From Diphasiastrum complanatum (Eukaryota > Streptophyta > Lycopodiopsida > Lycopodiales > Lycopodiaceae), in NCBI GenBank assembly GCA_029204225.1, contig CM055095.1:46114010-46178009 (forward strand): a stretch of DNA of 64,000 nucleotides, given 5' to 3'. Each line of letters starts with the position of its first letter. Position 1 is the first letter of the stretch. The notes under the pieces were generated by a model. That model made no database searches. It saw nothing but the letters and a program-made list of their open reading frames with translations, and had not been told where the DNA came from. The position numbers were made by a program, and so were the translations under genes. Positions 8,701 to 46,689 of this stretch are shown in pieces.

Positions 8701-11700
8701 GTCTACCTCAGAGAATCCCAATTCTCTCAAACTGCAGATAGCAACTTATGCTTGGGTATTGTTGAGACCATAATTCTTGCAAGCAGAGAATTTTTTTTTT
8801 TTGTTATGGGTTCAATATGGACTTTGTAATTTTTTTTTCTGGTTGCATGTAAGTTACGAATAGAGCCACAGCTGATCCAGAGCTAAGCTATGGAAGCATC
8901 ACATAAGCAAGACTTAAGCTATGAAAGCAACACATAAGCAAGACTTAACCCTAGAAAGCAGGAAAGAGAGAGATTAAGGAGGCTAAAGAGAGAGAGATCA
9001 ATATCATCAGCTGAATAACAAATGACACAGTTTCCCTACTTATAGCCAAGAGGAAGCCCTAAAAGGAAGCTTTCGGTGGCTAGGGCCCAACTGGGAGGGA
9101 AAATAGTGCACCCTCCAAGAAGGCCCCCACTCTCCAGTAATATGTCCAAATGGCCTAATAATGAATAATAAGGCCAAAGGCCAACCATATAGTCTAAGTG
9201 TCACTAATGAATAAAAAAGGGCCCAAGGCCTGCTTATGCATAAAGTAAAGTAAATGTAAATGGACGCGGTGAATGTAATGAGCCGAGTCCATAACTCTCC
9301 CTGGCACAAAAGAAAAAGACCCAACTGCCGAAAAGAAACTGGATCAAGTAGCAGCAAGCCCTGGTGCATCAACAGCTAGAACAACATCTGATGTAGAGGA
9401 ATCAACAAGTGCAGCAAGAGCACGAGCCTGATCCGCAAGTGATGGTGTATGATAAAAGCCATCAATAGGCTCCCATGTGGCCTCCTCAATAGGACGACCA
9501 TCCCACTGGACCAAAAACTGAATCTGCCGGCGGCGTCGACTATGGTATAGACGAACCTGTAATATAGCAGCAGGTAAAAATGGAAATAACTCTGGAGCAG
9601 TAGGAAACTCAGCATCACAAGGAGCGTCATCCTCAATAGCAGCACGTAATAAACTGACATGGAATACATCACAGGCGCATGTGGAAGCAGGAAGCTGTAA
9701 GCGATATGTAACTGGACTAAGAACCTCCAAAATGCAATAAGGCCCATAATAACGTGGTGCAAGCTTTTCAATAGAAGCATGACCCTGGACAAAATAATGA
9801 CGTGCAAACCGTAGGCGTAGATAAACCATATCTCCAAGCTGAAACTCAACATGGCGGCGGTGACGATCAACTGAGGTCTGATAACGCTGCTGAACATGCA
9901 AACCTCAAGCTATTGCGGATTTAGGCAAATTTGACGATGCCAGGCTGTTGATCAATGTAAATATGGCTTATCCAGAGTTATTCAGTCTTTATGTGGATTG
10001 GGAGCGAAATCTTGCAGATTATTTTGCGGAGATTCGACACAATCTGCAAGACAGAAGGAAGTCATTTCGCTCTCGAGCACCTGATAGAAAAGATGCAAGT
10101 GTGACAGGTGTATCCTCAGGAGGGAGAGGAATGCCAGGTAAAAGAGGTGCATAGCCATGAGATAATAAAAATGGTGAGACACCTGTGCTGGTACTAACAA
10201 AGCTATTATAGCTATACGCTGCTAAACATAAATACTGATCCCAATCCTTCCCTGAAGGAGTAACAAAATGGCGTAAATAATCCTCAAGGATCTTGTTAAC
10301 GACCTTAGACTGCCCATCAGAAGTAGAATGATAAGCAGAACCCATAAAAAGCTGTACATCCAATATACGCATAAGCTCAAGAATATAGATGTAAACTTAC
10401 TATCCCGATCAGAAAGGATAGTACGAGGAAATCCATGCAGGCGGAAACTCTCTGATAGGAACAAACGTGCACACTGCTCTGTTGTGATAGTACTGCGAAC
10501 TGGTATAAAATGTCCCTGTTTCGAGAACCTGTCAACTACCACCATACATGAATCGTGACCACGCTGGATATGGGGAAGGCCAAGGATAAAGTCCATAGAT
10601 ATATCAGTCCATTGGCGATGATGAATAGGCCAACTCTGGAGCAAACCAGCAGATTTAGCACGGGAGTACTTATTACGAAGACAAAAAGGGCTGGTACGAA
10701 TAAGTACAGCAAGCTCAGATCGAAGAGAGGGCCAATAGAAATGGTCTTTGAGACGAGCATAAGACTTCTGAAAACCAAAGTGACCCCCAACAGGAGAGGA
10801 ATGCGCATCCGACAACAATCGGGAACGGATACCCAAGGAACTAGGAATACAAAGAGAATCATAACGATGAAGACGGTTGTCAACAATGGAGTAAACCTGA
10901 TGAGGAGAAACAGGTGGGTCAGAACTATAAACATCACAAAAATCAGAACATGTAAGGTATGCTGCAGGTAGATCATCAAACCATGGAGGAATAGTAGAAA
11001 CGAGTGTATTCAACAAAGCTGGAAGACGAGATAATGCATCAGCAGCAGTGTTAGCACGACCAGGACGATACAATATGGAAAAATTAAAAGACTGTAAAAA
11101 CTGCAACCAACGAAATTGACGATCACTAAGGTCACGTTGAGAAAACAGATAACGTAAAAACTGGTGATCAGTAATAATGTCAAATGGAACTCGATACAGA
11201 TAATGACGCCACTTCTTAAGAGCATAGATAATAGCAAGAAGCTCTTTCTCATGCACAGAATAACGTTGCTCATAAGAGCGAAGACGACGCAACTCATAAG
11301 CAATAATACATTGTGACTGGCGAAGTAAAGCACCCAAACCAACATTACTAGCATCAGTCTCAACAAGAAACTTCTGATCAAACTGTGGTAAACACATAAC
11401 GGCAGCATCAACAACAGCACGACGAAGAGTATCAAACGCTAACTGACAATCAGAAGTCCAAAGAAAAGTACTAGACTTCTTCAAAAGTGCATGAAGAGGA
11501 GCTGCAATAGTGGCAAAATGAGGAACTGGACGACGAAGGTGAGTGGCTAACCCAAGGAACATACAAACATGATGAATATCAGTTGGTATAGGCCAATCCT
11601 GGATGGCCTGAACCTTATGAGGGTCCAGACGAGTGTGTCCATTACAAACAAGAAAACCAAGAAACTCGATCTCAGAAACAGCAAAAGAACATTTAGACAA

Positions 11701-14700
11701 CTTAGCAAATAACTGGTGATGTACAAGTAACTGAAATACAGAGGAAAGATGGGAAACATGCTCAGCAAGAGACTGACTAAAAATAAGAATATCATCAAAA
11801 TAAACCAAGACACAATGACCAAGAAGCGGACGCATGACGTTATTCATCACATTCTGGAACGTAGGAGGGCCATTAGTAACACCAAAAGGAAGCACACGAA
11901 ATTCATATAAACCAAGATGAGTACGAAAAGCAGTCTTATGTTCGTCAGAAGGGTGCATCTTGATTTGGTAATATCCAGAACGAAGGTCTACCTTGGAAAA
12001 GATTTTAAAGGTACCGAGCTGGTCAAAGAGGTCATCCACAAGGCAAGCTGAGCATGACAAGTAGCAGGAAGTAAATCAGTGGAAGGCTTAGAGGATAGGT
12101 CAGGCTCATCAGAAATATGAATGTAGATAATCAGAATCATTTGGAGTAGTGCCCGCATGGTGAAAAATAGCAGTAGTAGTAGGGAGAGGCTGACGGCAAT
12201 CACGGGCAAAATGGTCAAGACTCTTACAACGAAAGCAAAGACACTTCTGCTGAAGGTCAGCGAACTCTGCAGACGTGTAACGTCGGACAAAAGCAGGTCG
12301 AGGAGTCGTAGGACGAGGAGACGAAGGGACAACGGAGAGAGCTGGAACAGAAGGGGCAGGTGTAGGGGTGGACGTAGCGGGAAAAGATGAAGCAGAAGGA
12401 CGGGGTCGGGAGAAGCGGGAAGGAAGGGTGTCAAAGTACTTATGCTGTAAAGTACTGGCAAGAGACATCGCCTCAACAAGTGTGGGAGGACGGAAGGAAG
12501 AAACATCATAACGTAAAGCACCACGAAGCCCAGCAATGTAACGAGAAATAAGCTCAATGGGCTGTAGATCTGTGAAAAGATAAGAAAGCTCCATAAATTG
12601 ATCTGTATAAGAAGCAAGATCACTAGTCTGAGTGAGACTACGGAATGTATCACGTTGGCGGTTGAGCCACTGAGGATCAATCATAGCATGACGGAGACGG
12701 AGGTCACGGCGAAAAGTATGCCATGAATGAAGCCCTTCCCAATCAGGATCAGCTCTATAAACTCGCCACCACGTGGCGCACGTCCATCTAAATGTAAAGC
12801 AGCCAACTGGATCTTTTGAGGATTAGTCTTAGGGTAGATCTGGAAATATGTGTCAAGCTTAGCAAACCAATTCTCCAATAAGTTCCCGTCAGAGGAACCG
12901 GAATAGGTAGCAAGTTGTACCCTATCACGAAAGTCTCGAGCAAAGTGTGGCTCAGGAAGTGGGGGACGTGAAAAGAAACCAGGAGGAATGGACGGTCCAC
13001 CACCAGGCTGACTAGCAGAGGAAGATGGAAATCCAAATGGAGGGGGAGTCCCAAATGAAGGAAAAACAGGAGCTTTACCAGGACCATGAGGCTGTAAAGA
13101 ATCAATCGTGACTGCATAGTAGCAAAGCCGGTCATAACGGTATCGAAGCGAAGAACGAGGCCAGAAAGGGTCTCATCCATGCAACGAAACTGATCGGATA
13201 AGGTTTCCTGAGTAGTCTCACTCGGGGTAGGTGAATGAGCCATAATGATAGTGGAAGGAATAGACAAAAACTTGAGAGAGCGGACTCTTGTCGTCACCCC
13301 AAATTAGTCTATTAAAACCACTATTATCACAACTAAGAAAGGACAGCAATCAGCAATGAAAAAAGTGAAAATGAAGGCTGTAAAAATGCGCTGGACAGCC
13401 AGGAGGCAAGTGACAAATTGGAATATCAAACGGAGTCAAAATTTCGTGAAATTTGGTTGAGGATGGGCGATGGACAGCCTACAAACAAGGTGTGAAAAAT
13501 GGCTGCAAACGGAGACAAAAACGGACGAAAGTGACAAGTATGAAGCGGCTGGACAGCCTGCAAACAGAACGGACGAAAGAGGTGAGGGAATTGGGCGCTG
13601 GAGAGCCTGCAAACAAGCTGGAAATGGGTGATGGAGCGCCGGAAATAATCTGCCCAAAAAAAAAAAAATTCCGGCTGCCAAATTTAGCGGAAGTACTTCC
13701 GCTAACTATCTGCTAAAGCTCCACCAAAGAAAATGCTCTGATCCTCCTCCAAACTGTGCTGAATGTTGCTGAAGCAAAGAGACGAAAGCCCTCAGCAAAG
13801 AGAGAAAAATCAGCAAGGAAAATGGGCATCCAATCAGAAAATCAGATCTCAAATTCAGCAATCAGGAAAGTGCTCTAATACCAAGTTACGAATAGAGCCA
13901 CAGCTGATCTAAAGCTAAGCTATGAAAGCAGCACATAAGCAAGACTTAACCCTAGAAAGCGGGAAAGAGAGAGATTAAGGAGGCTAAAGAGAGAGATCAA
14001 TATCATCAGCTGAATAACAAATGACACAGTTTCCCTGCTTATAGCTAAGAGGAAGCCCTAAAAGGAAGCTTCCGGTGGCTAGGGCCCAACTGGGAGGGAA
14101 AATAGTGCGCCCTCCAAGAAGGCCCCCACTCTCCAGTAATATGTCCAAATGGCCTATTAATGAATAATAAGGCCAAAGGCCAACCATATAGTCCAAGTGT
14201 CACTAATGAATAAAAAAAGGCCCAAGGCCTGCTTATGCATAAAGTAAAGTAAAGTAAATGTAAATGGACGCGGCGAATGTAATGAGCCGAGTCCATAATT
14301 ATGTAGATTCGTCCTAAGCTTTACACAATGATGTTAATGAGGATTAGGATCCATTTCTCAAGAGCAAGAAAGGTGAATTAAGAAAGAAGGAGTTGAAAGA
14401 GGTCAAAAGCAACTCAAGGAAGGTAGATACAACTCTAATCTTGCTGGCTCTTCACAATCCAAATGGTATTGTCCATGCCTGCCATAAGGAATAAGAGAAA
14501 GCAAAGAGAGGGATGCACGACCACCTCCACCTGTTCTTCTCATGAAACCTAAGCATAGGAGAGGCATGCTTCCCTCTCCATGCTTGCCTACACACTGCCA
14601 AGTGGCTTTGCCTTGCCACCAAGGCCTCCACATCACCAATCCAAACCACCTGCCAGCTGGCAGCCAGATTCCACCCCCCCCCCCCCCCCCCCCCATCCTC

Positions 14701-16107
14701 TTCGCTGGACTACCCTACTCCAAGGGCTGCCACAGGCAGAAGGCCTTCGCAGGGGTCCCGCTGGTTTTTTTTCCAACTTTCCACGCTGGGGGGCCCACAG
14801 AACTACTGTCCGCTACTTTCAATCTGAGCAGAACTGCTGCCCGCTGCAGCCTCCTCACGAAGATCCTTGATCTTCGTCAAGTGATTGGTCACTTGATCCC
14901 CTTCTTGCAGCTTCAACAAAGAAAGTTGGTTTCTGAGATACACCACTCTTGCTGGATTTTTGACTCTATACATAGTATAAAGTGTATCCCACGCACTTTT
15001 AGATGTCTTACAAGACCCAATATGAGGTAAGATAGATCTTTTCACCGCAAGAGCAACCATAGAATGTGCTTGTGCATCCCTTCTATCCCACTTCTTTTGT
15101 TCTTCCGAAGATGTAGAAGATGATGATGATGATCCATGAGGTGTAGTAGGTGCCAAAGAAGGAGGCCTTTCCTCATCACCAATGACCAAATCCCACAGCC
15201 CTTTCGCAATGAGAAGATTCTTCATCATGTAACTCCACAAGGAGTAGTTTGTGCCATCCAACCGATCTTCACTAAACAAAGAACCGATAGCTTCCGATTC
15301 TTTAGCCATTACCTCCAACAGAATTTCAGCTTGTCGTAGATAGGAAAGAGAGCCTTTCCAAAACCAAATCTACTCAAAAAATTTGCAGCAAACAAAGAGC
15401 TGAAAGTAGGAGCATAAGATGTCTTTCAATCTGCAACCAAAGTGCCCAAAAGATAATGGATAAACGGCTGTCTTTTTGCACAAAAAAACAGCTTCTTGAA
15501 AATTAGGTTAGCTTCGATTGAAGCCTACACCGAAACCCAATTAAGAAGCCAAATAGTGTGATCAACACACACTCCAATAGGGCAATTGAAAGCACCCTAC
15601 TGCTTGCTGAGAATCTGCAAATTTCCAGCCACAAGTTGACCTAAGCCTGAATAGGGTTTGCTGAATTTTGGGCGCCCTCCTACACAAATGCAAACCTGAA
15701 AACAAAAACAGCAAGATAACGAGACACCACAACCAAAAATCAGTAGCAGATTTTTGGGCGCCCTCCTCCAAACAAAACTAGCTAAAAAGTGGTTGCATAA
15801 AAATCAGATTTGAGATTCTGATTTTTGGGTGCCACAAATTGCTCCTCCAAGATCTCTGATGGGCGCCCTCCTTCAACCTAAAAAGAGACAAAAAAAAGCT
15901 GATCCAAACTCCACAAGATCAGCAGGATGCTGAAATTTCAAAACAAAAAATAGAGAAGCTCCTCTTCTAGTAGGGCGCCAGCATGCAAGCTTGCTGCAGA
16001 TCCGGTAGCTCTGATACCATGTAGGAAAGCAAGAGTCAAGTCACCAAGATCTAGTTATCAATCAATCTCCACAGAAAACAAGAGAGAAGAGGCTGGGCGC
16101 CCAACTC

Positions 16108-16142
<35 letters not shown>

Positions 16143-19100
16143 ACAGCAACAAGAGCAATGGAGAGCAATGCTTAGCCAAAATGGAATACACAATGAGCAT
16201 CTAAGTGTTGGAATATCAATCCACACTCTAGAGAGAACTATCAAACAGGGCGGATAGCTCAGTGGTAGAGCATTCCATCCGCTATGAGGGAGGTCCTGGG
16301 TTCAAATCCTAGTCTGTCCATCCATATTATGATTTATGGATTTCTAACATGGTATCAGAGCCAAGTTAGACCTAACAGTTCATGGTGTCAAAGCCATGGT
16401 TAGGTGGCCCAAGTTGTGGGGCAGGTGACAACTAGGACCCCAACCAAGTGTGGCTTGAGGGGGGGTGTTGGAATATCAATCCACACTCTAGAGAGAACTA
16501 TCAAACAGGGCGAATAGCTCAGTGGTAGAGCATCCCATCCGGTATGAGGAAGGTCCTGGGTTCAAATCCTAGTCTGTCCATCTATATTATGATTTATGGA
16601 TTTCTAACACTAAGTACTCTACCTGGATGTGGCCAAATGCCACCAAACCCTAAGGTTAATCACTTACTAAATGTAGGCCACCCCCAAAGGTCAAGATAGG
16701 GCCCCTAAACAAAATTAGACCCCTAAGGACCCACGAGTCAGTACATAACCAAAATTGGGTCCAACTGAACTTAAGACAAACTTAAGATGGCCTAAATAAC
16801 TAAATACCCATGGTTACACAAATCTCGACCTTTTGGGTCAAAGTAACCTATGGATTAACTTTAGCATGGTCATTTATTTCTAACAGAAATGAGGGCCAAA
16901 ACAGTGATTGAGGGCCAAAAACAATGAAATAGGTTTTGCGAGGAAAAGGGTCCAAAAAAAAAATTAATTAATTACAAGAACTGTACCACGGTTCATGAAC
17001 CGTGGTACGGTTCACCCAACGGTCACAAAGGTTGCAAGGATGAATAGAATATTAGAGCCTTAGTTACAATACCAACTAAATTATCTCCCGGAAATGTAAC
17101 ATACAAGTTCCTGTATTGCTAAGACCACTATTTTATGTTACAATCAAGACCTCAAACTCTACATGATGTACATATCACATTATGAAAAAAAGCTCATACT
17201 AATAGGCCAAAGATCATGAAATTGAGATATATATGGACCATGAGTCTACATTTGTTAATGGTTGTTGATTGGACAATTTATTTTGGAGTCTTGTGCCAAT
17301 CATTTGTACTTTGGAACTTATTGAAAACACTTATGAAATATGGTCATTATTAGTGCCTAGTCTTTACTCATACAACCTAGACCTACCTCTTGGACTAAAA
17401 CAGTATAAGCAAGCTTTGGGTGGTCAGATGATTGTTTCGTTTCTTAGGTTCTAACTAGACGTAGTTATATTAGTTTAGCATCAAATAGTTTATTCAGACT
17501 TCTCTCTCTACTTTGTCTTTTGTGTTCAATGTTTTATTCATGACTTGTTGTGAAAGCACTTTTCGACCAATTTACATTCTAGATTTCCAACTTTCATTAG
17601 TTTTTGGGATCTCATCTTTTCTGTACTCTTCTTATTCCTTCTCTAGGCACTTTTCCATCATGGTTCTTCCTCCAGTAGGCTGCTTTGTGACTTGTAAGCC
17701 AGACCTTCAACAATCAAGATACTACACATCCAAATTTTAGATCATATTTGGCATTGTCTATTTTATCAATTTTTGGATCTAGAATCTTTTGACATTTTCG
17801 GTCTTGCTACAGTAGGACATTGTCATCATGTCTGATTTTACAGATGTTGCTAGATGCAGGAGGAATATGTTGTTGAGACATAAAGGCTTGATGAAGATAG
17901 TCAACTTGCTGATAAGAGATTTGAATCTCAAACGCAAAGACATGTAGCTGAGACACTAAGATTGCAATTGAGAGACAAAGATTAGCATATGAAAGTTCAC
18001 CCACTTATTGAATTTAACCCAAAGGATTAGTTGAGGCCCATGCACAAACATCTGCAACTGGGATAGAGGTACATTTTGAGGAGTCATAAAATGTCTAGAC
18101 AAGGTACAGGCACAAAAAATCAATGTTATGAGGCCCATGCATGTACAAATGAGACATGGGCATATATTCATTCATAAGATCTTTTGTCTCTTGCAACTTG
18201 GGCAAAGGCGCATGTTCCTTTTGTGGTTCTTATGCATGATAGTGTTCCAATTGGCAACAATGATGTTGCAGCTTCTCAATCAGTATACGACATTGTTCAT
18301 AAGACTCGTCCTTTTGTTACGTGATCTTGGTTATCATGACTGCTCAATCCTATTGAAGGGTCCATGCGTATAATGGTAGAACATTCAAGTTCTACTCGGT
18401 TACTTTTCTCTCTTTTTCAATATATGGAGCAGTTTAAAGGTCATTGGTTTTGACTTTACTGAAGTCGATTAATAGTGCCACCATATGCTATAACCGGTCC
18501 ATATATTTTTCTTTTGTTCTGTGTGCAATTTAAAATTCAGTTCTACTTGACACCCTTCAGATATCCTAGGATTTCTTTGCACCTCTGGATCCACTTCTTC
18601 ACATTGCCCTTTAGCTCTTCTAGTCTACCAATTGGCATGGAGTTTCTTTGATAGTATTGCGTCACTTTACCACATTAAGATGATAATCATGATCTGTTAG
18701 GATGGCATGTGTTCTCATCATAAGTAACGCAACTTTTCTATGATGCTTTGCTTAAATTGTTCACATGATGATTTTCTTCAACATCCCTAGTCCATTCATC
18801 TAGCATGGTGATCTCAACAAGAAGGTATTAAGTAATTAATCCAATTTCTTTGCTTCTACTGCAACATAAAAAATTTGGGCAACCTCTACTCTATATGTGT
18901 TCGATGGTGTTCTATTCTCGCTTTTGTAGCTTCTTCTTTGATGTATCCAAATGTTTCCATTTTCATCACCTTCATTATATTGGCACCTAACTACATGGTC
19001 TTTTTGAGGAAGGAGGCAGAGTTATAGGCCAAATATAATGGACATGGACAACTTAGAACTATATGGACAATGGGTCTACACTTGTTTTTATTTCTCATTT

Positions 19101-32000: not shown

Positions 32001-32834
32001 TGTTGGAATGGCAAAGTGGAGCCACAGCCCACGCTCAAAGAGATCCCATAAGTAGAAGTGAGACTTTGTTCAAAGTGGATATAAGTGGTAAATGTCCAAG
32101 TGTTTAATGTCCCCTAGTACTAGCCCTTCCGGGGTCAAAGGGGAATGACGGTGGGTGGCTAGGCGGTGGGGATGGGATCCCGCACGCGGCCCGCAGGCAC
32201 GCACGACGTGCCACATCGTCTACTGGACCGCTCTCCACTGCCGAAAAACTCTGAGTTGGTATCAGAGCAAGTGTTATGGTCCTGAACGAGCAAGTGGGAG
32301 TTTCCTTCGCCTTGTGCTCGCTTGAGTGGGGGTGTTGGAGGATGCAAGCTACGCACAAAGCAGCTGCGTCCGAAAAGGCACAAAAAAGAGTGCATTCATC
32401 CCATAAGCAAATGGAGACTATAACAGAACCCACATATAAGCTCATTGTAGACAATGTACCCTTGTCCCCTGGTACCAGCCCTTTTGGGGTCAAAGGGGAA
32501 TGATGGCGGGTGACTAGGGGTGGGGATGAGATCCCGCACGCGGCCCGCAGACTCAGAGTTTGTCGATAGCAGACAAACTACAAACTCTGAGTCTGCGGGC
32601 CGCGTGCGGGCTCCCATCCCCACCCCTAGTCATCCGCCATCATTCCCCTTTGACCCCAAAAGGGCTGGTACCATGGGACATTAAACACTTGGACATTGAC
32701 CACTTATATCCACTTTGAACAAAGTCCCACTTCTACTTATGGGATTTCTTTGAGCGTGGGTTGTGGCTCCACTTTGCCATTCCAACACTCCCCCTCAAAG
32801 TGGGGCACGGGTCACGTTGTCTTCTCTAATACCA
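32001..32834. mobile_element. Miniature LTR (TRIM/SMART) pile with tail-to-tail LTRs
   Basis: A plus-strand LTR (32001-32256, starting TGTTGGAATGG) is followed by primer site TGGTATCAGAGC (32257-32268), a 55 bp spacer, purine tract GAGTGGGGG (32324-32332) and a second LTR starting TGTTGGAGG (32333). On the minus strand a third LTR runs from 32787 down to about 32551, with purine tract TGAGGGGGAG (32797-32788) and a primer-site-like TGGTATTAGAG (32834-32824) outside it. The second and third LTRs meet tail to tail. No coding sequence is present. Confidence 0.8.
32463..32680. repeat. Large inverted repeat, arms about 101 nt, loop 16 nt
   Basis: Arms at 32463-32563 and 32580-32680 are nearly perfect reverse complements. 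They come from the ends of two LTRs in opposite orientation. A third, direct copy of the arm sequence lies at about 32109-32208. Confidence 0.85.
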
Positions 32835-33647
32835 TGTTGGGAAAGTCGAAGGAGAGAGAGTGTGTGTGTGAAAATAATAGCATCAGAAACTTATCAGAGA
32901 TAGACAAAGTAGATGCCTTGTGCATTGATTCTTTTGTGTTGTCAGTAACAGGTTCATAGCTTTTAAGATTGAATTAGCTTTGTAGAGCATGCGGTTTCGT
33001 CTGCTATTGTCTTGTGCTCCACAACATTATTGACATGTATATTTTGCTATACTTAATCTGATAATAGCTCTGTTTTGTTCTGCGTTCAGATTTGTGTCAA
33101 TTTGCTATGTTTTTCTACATTTTGTCTGACTCTCTTATTGCTCAAAGTCTTGCCTTTTGTGACCAATTCGCGACTAATTATTAGTCGAGATCAGTCTAGC
33201 TCTTCGCGAATCATTCGCGACTAATAATTTGTCTAGCTGTTCACGACAAATTATTCTTCTGATGTTTTGTTGCTTAATGCTTGGCTATGTAATCAGATCG
33301 ACCGTGATTTCTATCACTAACGTTCTGTTCACGCGAACACCCTGACGAAAAGACACGAACACGAAAAATTCGCAAAAGAAATTTTTTCGCAAAAGTCAGA
33401 CGACAAGAAAGTCAAACGACTCGAAGCGACACAAAAAACGTCGCGACATCTTTTTCTGCCCTCACGCTCCAAAAAGGACCAGCGAGATCATGCAAGTACC
33501 CAGAAGTACAGATCTGATAGCATGACATCAACAGATACACTCTAGGTCATGGCTATATGCCATTCTTATAATTTGTAGATGTGCAATCTCACATGCATGT
33601 AGGTCGTGGTAGATCACTGGAAGATCCTCAAATGTGCATTTTTAACA
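32835..33647 (+). repeat. LTR-like segment ending at a primer-binding site
   Basis: It ends TTTTTAACA at 33647 and is followed at once by TGGTTTCAGAGCT (33648-33660), as at the 5' end of a plus-strand LTR element. The left limit TGTTGGGAAAG at 32835 is uncertain, because it also abuts the minus-strand primer-like site at 32824-32834. No internal coding region follows. Confidence 0.5.
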
Positions 33648-37641: not shown

Positions 37642-38931
37642 ATGGTGGACCCTGTGTTTGTGAGCATAACTGGGGCAGTGATCGCAGAGTTATTCGGTAG
37701 GGTTATCACGGCTGCAGAAATTGCTATCAGATGCAAGCATTTACAGCAGCCTTCAATCATGCAATTAAATGTTCAAGTACTTCCCCAAGTGCTGGTTCAA
37801 CACACAATTGGTTGCTTAGCCTCAGGGAAACCTTGGAAGATGCAGAGAAGGCCGTGAATGATTGCAGTGATCAGCCACTGTTGAATCCGTGGTCAAGATA
37901 TCAGATGGCGACCAGAATCGTTGAGATAACAGGTCGTTTAGGCGACCACTGCCAGCAAGCAACTCTAGTGACGCTGGGTGTTACTGTGTCACTGGCCCAG
38001 GAGCTGGAGGCCACAAGGAAGGAGATGCAAGAGGGGCTGCAGCGACTGGAGCTCTCAATGGCCACAAAAAACTCTCTTAGTTTCAAGTTTAATGCAGAGC
38101 GTGCCTTTTACCTGATCAAAACTCAAGTGGATAAATTGTCAACTTGGGTCAGGAACATTGGTGATGGAAGGCCAGGGGCATCTTCATCTCCATCTTTAAC
38201 CATGTTAGAAGATGGTGTTGAAAAATCGGCACATATGCAACCAGTCCCACAATTCGTGTTCGGCATGGAAAGACTGACTAAGCAGCTGCAAGAGTTGGTT
38301 TTGCCAACTAATAACACTGAACATAGATGCAAATGCATTGGAGTATGGGGCAGGCAAGACGTTGTTGGTTCAAAGAGTTTACAACAGCACAGAGCTGAGA
38401 AACTCTTTCAGGGAAGACTCAATGTATTGGCTGACAGTGGGGCAAAAACCTTCCATTCGAGCATTGTATGTCGCTTTGAGCAAACATTTTAATCTTCAAT
38501 TTGAGGATAATACTTCCCAAGAGGAATTAAAAATTATGTTATAGAAGAAAATGTTTCTTGTCCTAGATGATGTATGGGACGAAGGTGTATCGGAGCGGCT
38601 AGAATTAGCCAAGGGAGCAGGGAGTGTCACACTAGTGACCTCTCAAAATCGTCAGGTCCTTCAAAAGTTGAGTGAAACTGAGGTGATCGTGAGCCTTCTA
38701 TCTAAAGAAGATAGCTGGAGCCTTTTTTGTGTGCATGCTTTTGGTGGGGTTGGAAAGATCCCTCCAGAGTTCCAATGTTTGGCCAGGTTGGTGGCTGATG
38801 AATGCAAGGGCCTCCCATTGGCCCTAAAAGTATTGGCAGAGCAATGGTGGGAAAGCATACTTCTAATGAATGGCCTATCGAGCTGGCCAAATTGAAAAAC
38901 TCACAAATGCCCAGCAATTATGTGGAGAAGG
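37642..38931 (+). pseudogene. RPW8-type NLR pseudogene, N-terminal and NB-ARC part
   Basis: Relic of an intracellular immune receptor of the RPW8-NLR (helper NLR) type. It starts MVDPVFVSITGAVIAELF. The segment SLRETLEDAEKAV to MATRIVEITGRLGDHC matches the RPW8 four-helix domain. The NB-ARC domain follows: FVFGMERLTKQLQEL, P-loop GAGKTLLVQRVYN (38350), kinase-2 MFLVLDDVWDE (38551), and CKGLPLALKVLA (38810). Breaks seen are a frame change near 37735, one at the P-loop near 38345, an in-frame TAG at 38542 and a frame change near 38845. Reading then continues AMVGKHTSNEWPIELAKLK until a copia element interrupts at 38932. The 3' half is at 45395-46689. Confidence 0.88.
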
Positions 38932-39134
38932 TGTTAGAATGAATCACAGCGAGGAAGATGACAACATAAAAGGCAAAATCTACGAACACTCAATTGACCA
39001 ATCATAAAGCAAAATCACACACACATACAAAAGCGATATCTTAATTACCAAAAGCGTAATCATAGCCTTACGAAGCATGTACATATATCAGCATGCTAGT
39101 GTCATGCCAAGATTCTATATAATGTGCAATATGA
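38932..39134 (-). repeat. 3' LTR of the copia in the NLR gene
   Basis: 203 bp. On the plus strand it begins TGTTAGAATGAATC and ends GTGCAATATGA. A purine-rich GGAATGGAGG lies just inside on the minus strand. Confidence 0.9.
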
Positions 39135-42022
39135 CCTCCATTCCTGCATATGAAGATGCTGCCCTGGTTGTCGTTGAAGATCTTCATTCATTTTGTCGAG
39201 ATGCCTATCTCGTGACATAGACTCTTGATCCAAACATACTCCCTAGCACTATGACATATCCCCATTAGTTCCGCTCCAGTTGAGGAGAGAGCCACAAATT
39301 TTTGCTTACTACTTGCCCAGCTTACAGCTCCTCCGCCCATCATGAAGACGAACCCACAGGTGGATTTCCTGTCATCTGTGTCACCTGCCCAATCAGAGTC
39401 AACAAACCCCTCAATGTTTTCAAAAGGAAACATGTATTCCAAGCCAAGTCCAATGGTTCCCTTTAAGTATCTCAGAACTCTTTTGGCTGCTTGCTAATGA
39501 TCGATGCCTGGGTCTTCCAGATACCTGCTGAGTGATCCAATTGTCGTGGCTATATCTGGCCTAGTGCATACCATAGCGCACATCAACGATCCCACTAGGC
39601 TTCTATATGGATATCGGTTCATTTTTGCTCTATTAGACTCAGTTTGTGGTGACATCTCTTTGCTCAATCATATTCCCTGTTCTTGTGGAGTTCCAATGGG
39701 ATTGCAATTTTCCATCCCAATTTTTTTGAGCATATTAATGATGTACCTTTCCTGCCTTAGGTGGATAGATTTTCTGATTTTGTCTCTTTCAACTTGAATT
39801 CCTAGGCAATAATGTAGCTGCCCCATATCCTTGATTTCAAACTCAGTCTTCAATCCCGCCTTACAGGACTCCAGCCTTGAAATGTTGTCGCCAATCAAAA
39901 TTATATCATCCACATAAAGTGCTATGACAGTGATTTCCAAATGAGATCTCCTGACGAATATGCTCTGATCTGAGTTGCATTTCTTGAAATTTCGTTCATG
40001 AAGGTATATTTCAATTCGTTCATACCAGACTCTGGATGATTGCTTTAATCCATATAGGGCTTTGTTGAGCTTGCAGACCATGCCCGACCCTTCTGCAAAT
40101 CCGTCTGGTTGTTTCATATACACGGCCTCACTTAGTGTCCCGTTCAGGAATGCAATTTTGACGTCAAGCTGATGAATCTCCATGCCATTGGCAGTTGCGC
40201 ATGCAAGGATTATGCTAATCGATCCAATTCTAGCGACTAGGGCAAATGTTTCATCAAAGTACCTTCTGTTTGCGAGCATCCTTTGGCTACTATCCGTGCC
40301 TTATATCTCTCCACATTGCCCTCTGCATCATATTTTAATTTATAAATCCACCTGCAGCCAATGGCTCTCCTCCCTTCTGGTAGGTGTACCAGATTCCACG
40401 CATTGTTCTTCTTAATCGACTCCATTTCTTCTGTCATTGCATGGAGCCACTCATTCCAGTCTCCCCTCTCTTGAGCTTCCCAGTAAGATCCTGGCTCTTC
40501 ATCTGGTTCTTGACTCATGAACATCATCTCATCGCTTTGTGGAGCTCTCTTTGCCTTGTTTGGCCTTGCCTCAGCAATTGTCTCTGGTCTCTCCCGATTG
40601 AACTTGATCTTGAGCCTTGGTTGCCTCACTGTATCAAGTTCTTCGTTCTCTTCTGCATCAAAAAATTCTTTCCCCGTGGACATCTGACCATCAATGCTCT
40701 CATCATGGGCATGATCCTCCGACGATACGTTGTCTTGGGATGTATTGGAGCTCGAAATGCTAATGACCTTTGTAGGAAACACCATGCCCCCTTGAGTCCA
40801 TGATTAGAACCAGAATTGGAGGTGGGTTTTACCACCACTGTGGGATCTTCATCAAACACGACATCCCTTGCATTGATGAACTTTTTTGTAACAAGATCAA
40901 AAAGCTTATATCCTTTAGCTCCTTCCGGATATCCTACAAACTTAGCATTTTTTGGATTTGGGATCAAGTTTCTTCCGATTTTCTTTGGGAATATATATGT
41001 ATGCAGTGCAGCCAAAACCCTAAAGTGATCTACTCTTGGCTTATGTCCATACCACATCTCGTGAGGGGTTTTTCCTGCCAAGACCTTTGTTGGAGATCTG
41101 TTGATTATGTGACATGTAGTTGCAACAGCCTCTGCCCATAGATACTTAGGTAGATTATTCTCCTGCAACATACAACGAGTCATTTCCATCAGCATTCTGA
41201 TTTTTCTTCCGCCAAACCATTCTGTTCAAGAGTGTATGGGACAATAAATTCTCTCAAGATACCATTTGTTGTAAAGCTACCTTTACAAGCTTTACTTATG
41301 GCGCCATCGGTGCCAGCTATGTCCCCGGCGCCAGCAGCGCCCCTGCTCCCGGCGCCACTGTGACCAGAATCCAGCCGGCGCCAAGTTCCTATGGCTGAAA
41401 ATCTTTGATCGGTTCTAGCGAAGTCCAGAGAGCTCAGATCGATGTGCAATCACCTCACACGATCTAGGCATGATTAAAGGAAGCCTGGGGATCAATAAAA
41501 TCTAGAGAGAGAAAATGACTTTCTAGAAAGAGAAAATCCTAGAGAGAGAAAAACGTGCTTTACCAGCTTGGGTAGAGTGCTTGGTATGAGGGGGGGTGCC
41601 GAATCACACCAATACTATATATAGGGGAGTGCGAGTTGCGACTCAGGGCGAGCTCCAACCAAGTCTCAGCCTCCCTTGCTGGAATGTTGTCATGGCTCTC
41701 GCCTTGGCATGCTAGCGCCCCGGAGACTAGGGTCGGTCACACACTCGAAATGTAACCTTCTCAGATTTATCAATAAAGTGGGATTTTCCTCAAACTGACT
41801 CTGATTACCTTCTGGGTTTCAGTGTTCGGTAAAAGCGCCATTTGTAAGGCCGCTTTCAAAATTTTTAACTTGGCACATAGCTGAGGGTCGTATCCCGGGA
41901 CGCCAGCGGTATGCCGTCGGGACCATTCGGTCCATGGCGCCAGCGGTATGCTGTCGGGACCATTTGATCCAGGAACTGGTTGTTTCCATATCTGTTGCGA
42001 CTTGTGGTTCTGAGTGTTCCTT

Positions 42023-42405
42023 GCATGAACGTGAATGGGTTAAGCTCTTGGGCAACGGGCTCTAACTTGTCGGCTGAGTTGGATGGCTTGCTTGGGTGGA
42101 TGTTACCTGTTTATGGCTGTCCAGTCTGGCGTGGCGCCAGGTTGGCTTCCAGCGCTCGTGACGAAGCTTTCAGTTGGTTAAGTCTGATGTAAGTAAGACC
42201 GCTTGCTTGGAATGGATGTTACTCGTTTGTAACGAAGCTTCGAGTTGGTTAAGTTTGATGTATGTCGGGCGGCTTGCTTGGAGGGAAGTCACCCACATCG
42301 GGACCCCCGATCTGGCATGGCGCCAGGTTGGATCTCAATGTTGGTTTTCGGAACTTCAAGTTGGTTAAGTCTGATCGTTGTTGGCGAGTTGGCTGCTTGT
42401 ACGTC
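42023..42405 (+). repeat. Degenerate direct repeats in the nested element LTR
   Basis: The motif AGTTGGTTAAGTCTGATG followed by GGCTTGCTTGG occurs at about 42169, 42242 and 42358, with a weaker copy at 42027. The pair GCCAGCGGTATGCCGTCGGG recurs at about 41901 and 41939. Confidence 0.7.
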
Positions 42406-42570
42406 AAGTGGGTTTGGATGGCAAGAGTTGAAGGCTGGGAAGCTAAGTCATGGTTCCCGGCTCCCTTTGGGATGCCTGTGCTACATGTGGTATCAGAGCC
42501 GACTGGCCAGTCAGCTATGCGGATCTCACGGAAATGGCCACCGTTTGGGGTTTATCTAGACAACTGTTGT

Positions 42571-42965
42571 GCAAGGTGCTGCCCACAGTGTAAGCACGGG
42601 TGCGTCCATGGTCGGGGTGGTCGGCAGAACGGGGGACTTGATGAGTCAAGGTGCTGCCCTTGAGGTGTAAGCACGGTCAGTTCTCGCGGTTCGGGCCTGG
42701 CGCTGTCTGCACGTAGGACGGATGAGGCAAAGTGCTGCCTAGGGAGGTGAAAGCACGGTCTGTACCTTGTGGGGTGCGGGGCGACATGTTCCAACCTTAC
42801 GGGTTAACCATTGATACAGAGATGCTGCTCGAATTCGGGTGTAAAGCACGGGTGGTTAGCTGCCGGTGCGGGATAGCTGCCGATCGTTTAGCTATAGGGG
42901 CTATCGACCAAAAAGTGGTGGGGCGTGACTGAGGCAATGTGCTGCTTAATGGTGAAAGCATGGAT
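42571..42965 (+). repeat. Five degenerate repeats with small GTGCT...AGCAC hairpins
   Basis: Units at about 42571, 42646, 42727, 42817 and 42934 share the pattern CAA-GTGCTGCC, 10-15 bases, then GGTGTAAAGCACGG. GTGCT and AGCAC are complementary, so each can form a short hairpin. Spacing is about 75-115 bp. They lie just after the primer site of the nested element. Confidence 0.75.
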
Positions 42966-45002
42966 AGTTGGAGGGGTGTCCTATGTGGGCTGATTCCGTG
43001 ATCGATTTGTATGGGCGCGGCCAGGCAAAGGTCCGTTGGCAGGACCATCTCAAAGGGGGACCTTGTCTTTGTTACTTGTTAGTAAACCTGCCTGAGTGTC
43101 TTACTTGTATGTATTCGTGGTGAGTCTTAGTACTCGTGCTTTGCCTGGTTTGCATGATTGCTTGTGATACAAGGAACTGATGGCTCGAGAAGGAACCTTT
43201 TCTTTTGAAGGCTGATACCATCAAACAAAGAGGACTACAGAATCTGTGGGGCGGATTCAGTGGATCTTGTTGGGTGTATCTCTGGAAAGCGTTCCCTATG
43301 TTGCTTCCCAAAAATACACACATCACATTTGTCAATCCCCTCCTTGACATCGTAATCGAACCTCCTTAGCATCTCGTCATTCGCCAAGGTTTGGAGACTC
43401 GCATCCAAGATGCCCCATCCGCCTGTGCCAAAGATTGTTGGTTTTGTTGGAGTCCACCGTCAGACATGCCATAGATCTTTTGTCAGCTCCTCCTTGTAGC
43501 TGATACAAACCTCCTATCCTGAATCCAATGCCGATTGGTTCGTCATCCGTCTGAATGCTGCACCCTTCTTTTTCGAACAACACATGATATCCAGCATCTG
43601 TAAGTCTGGCTACCGACATCAGGTTCTTGGCTAAATTAGGAACATGTAGGACGTCACATAGGTTCACACTCCTGTCTTGCACAAGCCATATGCAAACGGA
43701 GCCTCTCCTTATCGCATCAATCATGCCTTTATCCCCCATCATGATCTCCTTACCGCTGAGCATCTGATAGGTGATGAAGGCATCACGATTATTTGTCATA
43801 TGGGACGAAGCTGCAGAATCAAGATACCAGTATGGGTCTGCGTCAACGATTTGTCTCTTGGCTTTCAACTTTACGTCGATGATCTCATTAGAATCATACG
43901 ATATGTCATATGACTGGGTGTCAGATAGTTCCAGGGAGTTCCAACTCTCCTTAGCCATCATAGCAAATACATTTGTGGTCTCCTGCACTTCATCAGCTAA
44001 GTTGGCTTGATCTGGACTCCTCCTCTGCATGTCAGCTTTCTTTTTGTTGCATTCACGAGCGAAGTGCCCTAGCCGACCACAGTAGTAACACTTCTTGTCA
44101 GATTTCTCTGGCCATCCTTTCTTCTTGAAGTCCTTCTCTTGCCGACTCGATTGCCCTCCTTCTGTAATGGGTCTTTGGTTCTTGATTCCCATCTTCTTGA
44201 AGCCACTCAAGAGTGCCATTTCATCCTCTGCTGGATTAACCTTCCGCCTACTTTCTTCCTGAATGAGCCTCCGAGTGATAAACTCCATGTCCAGTTTATC
44301 CTCTAACTCATCGAGCATCATGACCAGCAAATCCTAGCTGGATGGGAGACTCGTGATCAGATTGTATATAAGCTATTGCTTGTCAACCACCGCACCGACT
44401 GCGATTAGCTGTCTTCCAATGTCCTTAATGTTCTCCACATGGTCTCTCATTGAATCACCCTCACTCATCTTGGTGTTCGTCAGCTGCCTCTGCAACATCA
44501 GAATGCTTGAGAAACCTTTAGCTTGAAAGCTACCAAGAAGCGCATCCCATACCCCCTTTGTTGTCTCCTCATCTCTCACTAATGAGATCGCGGTCTCACC
44601 TAAGCTCAGGCACAACATCATGTGTGCTTTCGCAGCAATCAATTCGGCCTGCAATGCGTTCTTCACCCGACCCTCTTGATCCAGGTCAGGAGTCTCCTCA
44701 CCTGATACAACGCCCGAGAGGCCCTTGTTTTTCAGCAAGATCTTCATCTTCCAACTCCACGAGCAGTAATTGTCAGCCTCTAGCCGATCAATCATCTTGT
44801 TCTCTGTCGACGCTTCTAGTGCCATCTTCTCCGATTTGTAGGAGCTTCAAACGATTGTCACTTTATGCAGATTGACCGATCGCACGAGTTCACTCGTGTC
44901 AGCAAAAGGTAGAATCAGCAATCGATGCTGCTCTGATACTGCTCGATCCAAGATAGTATGTGATCCTGGATTCTTCCTTTACGTACGTGGGCCCATAACC
45001 AT

Positions 45003-45205
45003 TGTTAGAATGAATCACAGCGAGGAAGATGACAACATAAAAGGCAGAATCTACGAACACTCAATTGATCAATCATAAAGCAAAATCACACACACATACA
45101 AAAGCGATATCTTAATTACCAAAAGCGTAATCATAGACTCACGAAGCATGTACATATATCAGCATGCTAGTGTCATGCCAAGATTCTATATAATGTGCAA
45201 TATGA
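45003..45205 (-). repeat. 5' LTR of the copia in the NLR gene
   Basis: 203 bp copy of 38932-39134. The minus-strand sequence just inside it, TGGTTATGGGCCC, would be the primer site but is not the usual initiator-Met type. Confidence 0.9.
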
Positions 45206-45394: not shown

Positions 45395-46689
45395 AACCGC
45401 CTTGAGCTAAGCTTTAATTATTTGGACAATTTTTACCCCCTAGCAAGGAGTGATTCCTCTACTTTGCTGCCTTTTGTGAGGATCATGTAGTATAAAAAGA
45501 TATTTTGTTTGATCTTTGGATAGGAGAGCGCATGGTGGGAGATTGTGGTGATGACCCTGAGGATGATGCATTCTAGTTGTTGGGCCTTTTGATAGGTCGC
45601 TCATTGATTGAATTGCACACTTCCAAACTTTATGGAGATCACAACAAATATTTCAAGATTCATGATGTATTGCGAGACCTTGCCCTCCACATATTGGGAC
45701 GGAATAGAGCAGAGCACGAAAGGTCTTCCCTTTTTCAGGCTGCGAAATATCTAAAACAGTTTCCTTCCGAGTGGATGACAGAGAGTAGAGGTTGTTCACT
45801 TGCAGCACACAGACTTTCACTAATGGACAATCAGGTCACACAACTCCCTTCGTGCACCCGACTTACGCACTTTGCTTCTTCATTACAACCCCCTGAAGTC
45901 TTTGCCCATTGGTCTTCTTGAGGGTCTGGGAATGATCTTGGACCTAACTCATACTGATATAAAGTCCCTGTCAAACAGCATTGGCAATCTCAAGCTCCTA
46001 GTGCACCTCAACCTTTCCAGATCTCGAATAAAAAAATTGCCAAATTCTGTTCGTTATCTTAGAAGGCTTGAGATAATCTATCTGTCGGATTGCTCTGACT
46101 TGAAGTGCTTGCCTGCTGGGTTCACAAAATTGAGCTCATTGAAATCTCTGGATTTAAACAGATGTCATGATTTTATATGGGAGGAGAGCAGAGCGCTCCC
46201 AAAGTGCTCTTTGATTTCAAGGTCGTTGCTGATCAGAAAGGCTTCATTGGAAGACATATGCCACCTGTCCTTGTTTACCCGTGGCCTTGTCACTATTGGT
46301 GAACTTGAAAATGCTTCAGGTTAAGGGATTCGACCAGTCCGTGAGGTTACCAAATGAGATGCAATCTTTGGTAGAGCTCCGGGATATGGAACTTCATGGC
46401 TGCAGTAAGCTGGTTGAGCTGCCAGAATGGATCAAATCCTTCAAATATCTTACACGCCTCTCACTGGTGTCGTGTAGGAATCTGTCACATCTTCCTGCTC
46501 TGGATTCGCTTCCCATGCTTTCTCGAGCTAGACCTGAGCTGTTGCACCCACCTTCCTACATCATTCGGCCGTGCTGGTGCCTTTCCCGTTCTTGAGATTT
46601 TTTGGTTGGATAATTGTCATCGGCTGCTGGCATTTCCTGCTCTACAACCAGGGGCCATGCCAAAGCTCTTGGTCCTTAATCCATGTTGA
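45395..46689 (+). pseudogene. RPW8-type NLR pseudogene, ARC2 and LRR part
   Basis: Continues the NLR of 37642-38931. It starts RLELSFNYLDN, then FLYFAAF-EDH, DLWIGERMVGDCGDD, and the MHD-region reading YFKIHDVLRDLALHILGR (45650). Leucine-rich repeats follow: IKSLSNSIGNLKLLVHLNLS, IKKLPNSVRYLRRLEIIYLS, LKCLPAGFTKLSSLKSLDL, then further repeats to about 46689. In-frame stops occur at 45451, 45493 and 45574, and the frame changes near 45890, 46300 and 46520. With the four breaks upstream and the copia insertion, the gene is dead. Confidence 0.88.

Follow-up and report, generated by a model that had tools for sequence, protein, structure and literature searches.

The stretch of Diphasiastrum complanatum DNA analyzed here, 64,000 nucleotides of contig CM055095.1 (hereafter the window), contains a terminal-repeat retrotransposon in miniature (TRIM) of 404 bp, located at positions 16206–16609, in which each long terminal repeat (LTR) carries a tRNA-like module. 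The clubmoss TRIM belongs to a known kind of element, Helenus, and does not constitute a new class. Its structure, the copies found in the host genome and a set of exact fusions to Copia retrotransposons are best accounted for, with good probability, by a young, multicopy Helenus-type TRIM that is read by RNA polymerase III (Pol III) and mobilized by Copia elements, and from which both chimeras and tandem arrays arise when the second strand transfer of reverse transcription goes astray.

Structure of the element and its family

The window element is flanked by identical 5-bp target site duplications (TSDs), CTAAG, at 16201–16205 and 16610–16614. Reading along the forward strand, a 5′ LTR of 144 bp (TGTTGG...CTAACA, 16206–16349) is followed immediately by the primer binding site (PBS), TGGTATCAGAGCC (16350–16362), which we take to be of the initiator tRNA-Met (iMet) type. 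The PBS opens a non-coding internal region of 116 bp (16350–16465), which closes with the polypurine tract (PPT) GAGGGGGGG (16457–16465), and the PPT directly precedes the 3′ LTR, also of 144 bp (16466–16609). The two LTRs are identical at 139 of 144 positions, leaving five differences. The element thus has the paired LTRs, PBS, PPT, TSD, lack of coding sequence and length below about 1 kb that characterize a TRIM. An initial annotation, made from the sequence of the window alone, had proposed a TRIM of these dimensions with this TSD, and all of its boundaries were recovered. No more copies were found by a window-internal search of the 64 kb.

Within the LTRs, the tRNA-like modules of 73 nt, also noted at first, are located at 16248–16320 and 16508–16580 on the forward strand. 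Both were called by ARAGORN and by the Rfam tRNA model RF00005, with scores of 47.2 bits (E = 5.8e-7) for the 5′ copy and 45.1 bits (E = 2.2e-6) for the 3′ copy, relative to a cut-off of 29 bits and with E values computed for the whole window. Chance is excluded for both matches. Beyond these two modules, neither ARAGORN nor Rfam at its curated cut-off detected any tRNA-like sequence in the window. The 5′ module contains an A box, TAGCTCAGTGG (16255–16265), and a B box, GGTTCAAATCC (16299–16309), and the motifs TAGCT...TGG and GGTTC could be read by eye in the canonical boxes noted initially. A CAA motif occupies the positions 6 to 4 nt ahead of the 5′ module (16242–16244). The acceptor stem of seven pairs, described initially for both copies, is complete in the 5′ copy, where two of the pairs are G-U, but not in the 3′ copy, where A and C face each other at the sixth pair and five pairs remain in the fold of minimum energy.

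The D. complanatum genome (1.745 Gb) was searched for additional copies, as the initial annotation had advised. The hits that were scored are the best matches to the window copy, 40 per search, rather than a random sample. With the whole element as query, a first look gave 1240 candidates, and the best 40 contained 49 matches, 47 of which were nearly full length at 94–100% identity (some of them overlap within arrays). We inspected 35 single-copy loci and removed four segmental duplicates (L002, L005, L008 and L037), leaving 31 distinct single copies; five array loci (L009–L013) are counted separately. The family is multicopy, and a perfect 5-bp TSD surrounds 26 of the 31 distinct copies. In the 27 of these that have LTRs of equal length, the two LTRs differ on average at 2.48 of 144 positions (1.7%). 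No copies were found in eight arbitrary 10-kb stretches of the genome, one of which was 60% N. Exact-pattern searches of the viral_contigs and genome_contigs collections, neither of which is a promising source of plant elements, returned 0 matches.

Because the whole-element query itself contained the module, a second search was made with the internal region, from which the module is absent. It gave 1128 candidates, the best 40 were scored, and 30 loci were fetched. This set includes two internal copies from one array (L071 and L072) and a duplicate pair (L057/L058), and several of its loci also belong to the first set. Each of the 30 internal-region copies has a family LTR on one or both sides. 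The module, judged by the pattern at the A-box zone, was present in 46 of the 49 adjoining LTRs, tallied per locus; the other three comprise two matches of merely 17 and 24 bp and one decayed LTR at 75% identity. Among the best-matching copies, the tRNA-like module is a trait of the family. The initial annotation had allowed that most LTRs might lack the module, or that a tRNA gene had landed in a single copy before duplication; among these best-matching copies the first was not observed, and the second was rejected, the module being present in 46 of the 49 LTRs.

The array loci contain the same parts in serial order. Three LTRs and two internal regions make up the arrays at L009 and L011, with the TSDs GTGGT and GTCTG, respectively, while the array at L010 consists of five LTRs and four internal regions with the TSD TAATA; L012 and L013 are arrays without matching TSDs. 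The array at L009 is nested: it lies within the LTR of a diverged relative, which we call family 2 (the window family being family 1), and family 2 lies within an older remnant, family 3. Family 2 has an LTR of 150 bp, an internal region of 73 bp, the TSD ATTCT and a tRNA-like module that scores 50.3 bits with Rfam. The recognized parts of the family 3 remnant are a tRNA-like stretch (34.0 bits), an LTR end and a primer site. Where a family 1 LTR adjoins an inverted family 2 module in this locus (positions 1243–1389 of L009), Rfam also gave a sub-cut-off match to MIR831; inverted TRIM LTRs in this arrangement could be a source of hairpin RNA.

Fusions with Copia elements

At nine of the 30 internal-region loci (L051, L059, L060, L062, L070, L073, L076, L078 and L079), the sequence to the left of the internal region is the end of a foreign LTR, and the joint falls precisely on the first PBS base. 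The foreign ends read ..CTAACA, ..CTACA, ..CTATA, ..TTCACA or ..TTAACA, and by similarity the host LTRs fall into four families. The fused unit is 260 bp long and consists of one internal region and one tRNA-bearing LTR. In six of the chimeras (L059, L060, L073, L076, L078 and L079), a second primer site, TGGTATC..., is found to the right of the TRIM LTR. L059 and L060 are 95.9% alike over the whole stretch and were therefore counted as one event. In these two loci, truncated primer sites stand in a row to the right of the TRIM LTR, TGGTATCAGAACA occurring twice in L059 and once in L060, followed by TGGTTC, as if strand transfer had stuttered. Two other loci of the 30 also stand apart: at L056, an inverted family 1 LTR abuts the internal region directly, in an unusual palindromic arrangement, and the left side of L064 was left unclassified.

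For two of the hosts, the sequence was traced to the distal end. The chimera at L073 (continued in L082) is a 6.7-kb element with LTRs that are 99.5% alike (over a 657-bp match) and with CTAAG on both sides, as read from the flanks. It has a stop-to-stop frame of 1322 amino acids (aa), and the 1283 aa that were scanned contain Copia-type gag, integrase and RVT_2 domains. The host at L079 (continued in L081) is a Copia element with a broken frame and with GACTG on both sides. At L059 (continued in L083), a second copy of the host LTR lies downstream, 95.8% alike; a long frame was looked for in this element, and none was found. The arrangement is different at L062 and L070, where the TRIM unit stands behind the 3′ LTR of a Copia element whose own PPT and internal end precede that LTR. 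A primer site is not expected in the chromosome at this position. In both loci a clean end of the TRIM LTR closes the unit. The two sequences agree as far as this end and continue into unrelated right flanks, and the fused form therefore stands at two places in the genome.

A single process would fit the single copies, the arrays and the chimeras. RNA polymerase III would read the A and B boxes of the 5′ LTR, starting near the CAA motif just upstream of the module, to produce an RNA comprising the module, the remainder of the LTR, the internal region and the corresponding portion of the 3′ LTR. The role of the module would be that of a promoter rather than a tRNA. This RNA would be packaged by Copia proteins, with the first strand primed at the PBS by the initiator tRNA and the second strand primed by the PPT, and insertion of the product by the Copia integrase would generate the 5-bp TSD. 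When the second transfer goes astray, the plus strand, which ends in a copy of the PBS, would pair with a minus strand that belongs to another element within the same particle and then copy its internal region, its LTR and, once more, the primer-site copy of the tRNA, so that exactly one unit of 260 bp is added.

The exactness of the joints at the PBS suggests that the TRIM shares reverse transcription with Copia elements, and we infer from its chimeras with coding Copia elements that Copia proteins move it. A broader proposal would be that the Pol III-driven TRIM regularly recombines at the second transfer with several coding, iMet-primed Copia families, and that the fused Copia elements go on to transpose with a second promoter. 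We offer this extension tentatively, and give it slightly less than an even chance.

The tRNA-like module and alternative explanations

The A-box pattern was found in 60 and the B-box pattern in 57 of the 62 LTRs of the 31 distinct copies; the boxes were sought at fixed positions, and LTRs with insertions or deletions were scored as misses. In 60 of the 62, a CAA lies at most 10 nt upstream of the module. In plant tRNA genes, CAA at such an upstream position is described as a start-site motif (PMC11700998). At its 5′ side the module thus retains the signals that polymerase III requires, and it has the appearance of a Pol III promoter and not of a working tRNA.

Variation was analyzed in 20 of the 31 copies (40 LTRs). 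At LTR positions, 41 of the 48 variant cells (53 if gap columns are counted) fall in the module. The rate was 0.050 variants per cell at CHG sites (H being any base except G) and 0.025 at CG sites vs. 0.004 at A/T sites, and it reached 0.075 at CHG sites of the internal region. The excess in the module is due to its CHG and CG sites, a pattern that the decay of methylated cytosines would give. Selection or mutagenesis by polymerase III was considered as a cause of the variation and rejected, since CHG and CG decay explains it and the internal region behaves likewise.

Several observations weigh against a Pol III-read TRIM that recombines during reverse transcription. TTTT is present in none of the 62 LTRs, nor anywhere in the whole window element, which consequently has no ordinary Pol III terminator. 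The first TTTT 3′ of the window element is at 16831, and Pol III would need to terminate weakly or farther downstream. (Read-through beyond the 3′ LTR would not in itself block replication, as the first strand could transfer to the 3′ LTR, upstream of the RNA end.) Conservation of the module does not exceed that of the remaining LTR sequence, and in the remnants of families 2 and 3 the B box has drifted from GGTTC. L078 and the L079 chimera match as far as the stretch extends and have unrelated upstream sequences, but the host LTR in L078 is missing its first bases; L078 is not a clean second insertion of the L079 chimera, and may be a truncated copy. Lastly, DNA recombination is, in principle, another possible origin of the chimeras.

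The absence of a T-run, the ordinary level of conservation and the worn B boxes of the older remnants would all be natural if the module were a passenger, that is, a tRNA gene or short interspersed nuclear element that landed in the LTR of an ordinary TRIM and was copied to both LTRs, while transcription remained with RNA polymerase II. We nevertheless consider this unlikely. The tRNA-like stretch has been kept in the diverged family 2 and in the family 3 remnant, with an A box that is identical in the former and differs at one base in the latter, and BLAST matches between family 1 and family 2 LTRs are confined to the module and its immediate surroundings. Moreover, the CAA start motif sits where it would be expected.

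Equally unlikely, in our estimation, is an origin of the chimeras and arrays from DNA, by recombination of one-LTR TRIM circles of 260 bp into the primer sites of integrated elements. Such circles would account for an added unit of exactly one LTR and one internal region and for joints that fall on a common primer site of 12–13 bp, and recombination between LTRs is one of the two routes proposed for Cassandra arrays in the account by Kalendar et al. (2020, PMC7215508). Recombination of this kind would also produce the 5′ joints but would less readily produce those on the 3′ side at L062 and L070, where the unit stands behind a Copia 3′ LTR and its clean TRIM LTR end is bordered by flanks that are unrelated between the two loci.

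That the module is a functional tRNA, so that the family spreads tRNA genes, is very improbable, even though both Rfam and ARAGORN call it as a tRNA. A canonical anticodon loop is expected to have U at position 33, whereas this position is C in the window element and in 39 of the 40 LTRs analyzed. The anticodon calls made by ARAGORN disagree between the two window modules (Ser gct vs. Thr ggt) and vary among family 1 copies (Thr, Ser, Ile, Pro and Arg). In most of the copies shown in the Rfam alignment, the anticodon arm has four pairs around an 11-nt loop. A functional tRNA was rejected for the lack of U33 and of a consistent isotype; the tRNA gene of the initial annotation is more properly a tRNA-like module. 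The module may resemble plant tRNA-Cys. Many of the Helenus elements described by Kojima (2024, PMC10886601) show the same disagreement in isotype.

An assembly artefact or a single local duplication has a negligible probability: four pairs of loci (L001/L002, L004/L005, L007/L008 and L021/L037) have common TSDs and flanks at distant sites, some of them inverted on one chromosome, and appear to be segmental duplications or assembly haplotigs, but the 31 distinct loci, on many chromosomes and with differing flanks, refute it as a source of the family.

Surroundings of the element and relation to known systems

The window TRIM is itself located inside the LTR of a Copia element of the same family as the L079 host (Copia A), by ordinary insertion. 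On the reverse strand, the LTR part at 16610–16881 matches the L079 host LTR at 96% and the remainder at 16022–16206 matches it at 88%. A PBS search placed the Copia A primer site after the LTR, at 16008–16019, and the beginning of the Copia A internal region (14851–16020) is a 94% match to the sequence downstream of the TRIM unit in L079.

A second, larger TRIM-like structure at 32002–32838 has a primer site at 32257, a purine tract and LTR start at 32322–32338, and a long inverted partner; neither ARAGORN nor Rfam found a tRNA-like match in it, making it a useful non-tRNA contrast. The window also contains a Gypsy element on the reverse strand (8915–14253), with LTR-like repeats that are 97–98% alike and separated by 5 kb, and with a pol frame of 617 aa containing RVT_1, RNase H and integrase domains, as well as another Copia element on the reverse strand (38932–45205), with 203-bp terminal repeats 98% alike and Copia-type pol fragments. 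Frames with leucine-rich repeats at 45824–46595 on the forward strand resemble plant disease-resistance genes (the Pfam match is on the first frame), and a frame at 37701–38492 had no Pfam match.

In the initial annotation, the element was considered an analog of Cassandra that had captured a tRNA as internal promoter, and it was suggested that such a tRNA counterpart might be new. The analogy holds, with the Pol III role as a prediction; the novelty does not. A check of the literature showed that TRIMs with tRNA-derived sequence in their LTRs have been named Helenus and are described from fungi, animals and one plant, Selaginella moellendorffii (Kojima 2024, PMC10886601). Helenus is defined there by structure, and its author deems several origins likely; the boxes are given as TRGCY...YGG (A) and GGTTC (B), with 5-bp TSDs in the plant and fungal elements. 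Pol III transcription of Helenus is not shown in that account, which calls Cassandra validated in this respect. In the clubmoss family, tRNA-derived sequence with A and B boxes is found in both LTRs, as a trait of the best-matching copies, and the TSD is 5 bp.

Compared with Helenus-1_SMo of S. moellendorffii as described in PMC10886601, the clubmoss TRIM has the same tRNA-like sequence in both LTRs, A and B boxes, PBS, PPT, 5-bp TSD and lack of coding sequence, and it is similar in size (LTR and internal region of 144 and 116 bp vs. 120 and 85 bp). It differs in its host order, Lycopodiales, and in its PBS, which is of the 3′-end iMet type; the likeness is one of structure as described. Tandem arrays are mentioned in the Helenus account for zebrafish LTR-11_DR, and no mention of Copia chimeras was seen in the text consulted. 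Apart from that account, the name Helenus led to a meeting report that cites it and to a butterfly genome paper. Judged by titles, no other tRNA-bearing plant TRIM was apparent in the literature, and no title among those listed reports chimeras between a TRIM and Copia at the PBS; such chimeras may already be in print elsewhere. Plant Helenus, known from one species in that account, is hereby extended to a second lycophyte order, in a family that is numerous and arrayed and has at least one diverged relative.

The chimeras bear on a wider question. The autonomous partners of Cassandra are called unknown by Kalendar et al. (2020, PMC7215508), and interactions between TRIMs and autonomous elements are said to need verification by Gao et al. 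(2016, PMC4717578). The fusions at the PBS, one of which has a frame of 1322 aa between nearly identical LTRs, name candidate Copia partners and make the question testable. If the proposed origin is correct, the fusions would record directly, at the molecular level, which autonomous elements mobilize a TRIM; they would also be a path through which coding retrotransposons acquire a Pol III promoter.

Cassandra resembles the clubmoss TRIM in having a Pol III-type promoter captured in the LTR, the primer site TGGTATCAGAGC and tandem arrays, according to the description in PMC7215508. However, its module is derived from 5S ribosomal RNA and not tRNA-like, its length is 565–860 bp compared to 404 bp, and a Pol III terminator has been reported for it, whereas the clubmoss TRIM lacks a T-run. 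Identity with Cassandra was rejected, since Rfam at curated cut-offs found tRNA and no 5S match in the whole window. The plant TRIMs of Gao et al. (PMC4717578), including those of Selaginella and the TA-TRIMs, are similar in size and in their 5-bp TSD and form arrays of three LTRs with two internal regions or five with four; by contrast, a tRNA module is not mentioned in the main text of that paper, from which the word tRNA is absent. A parallel to the chimeras is provided by complexes formed through template switching in Triticeae (Sabot and Schulman 2007, PMC1950507), in which two parents were likewise fused during reverse transcription and are surrounded by a TSD. As described there, the Triticeae complexes resulted from the first (minus-strand) jump between LTRs, whereas the clubmoss joint falls exactly at the PBS and unites a TRIM with a coding Copia element.

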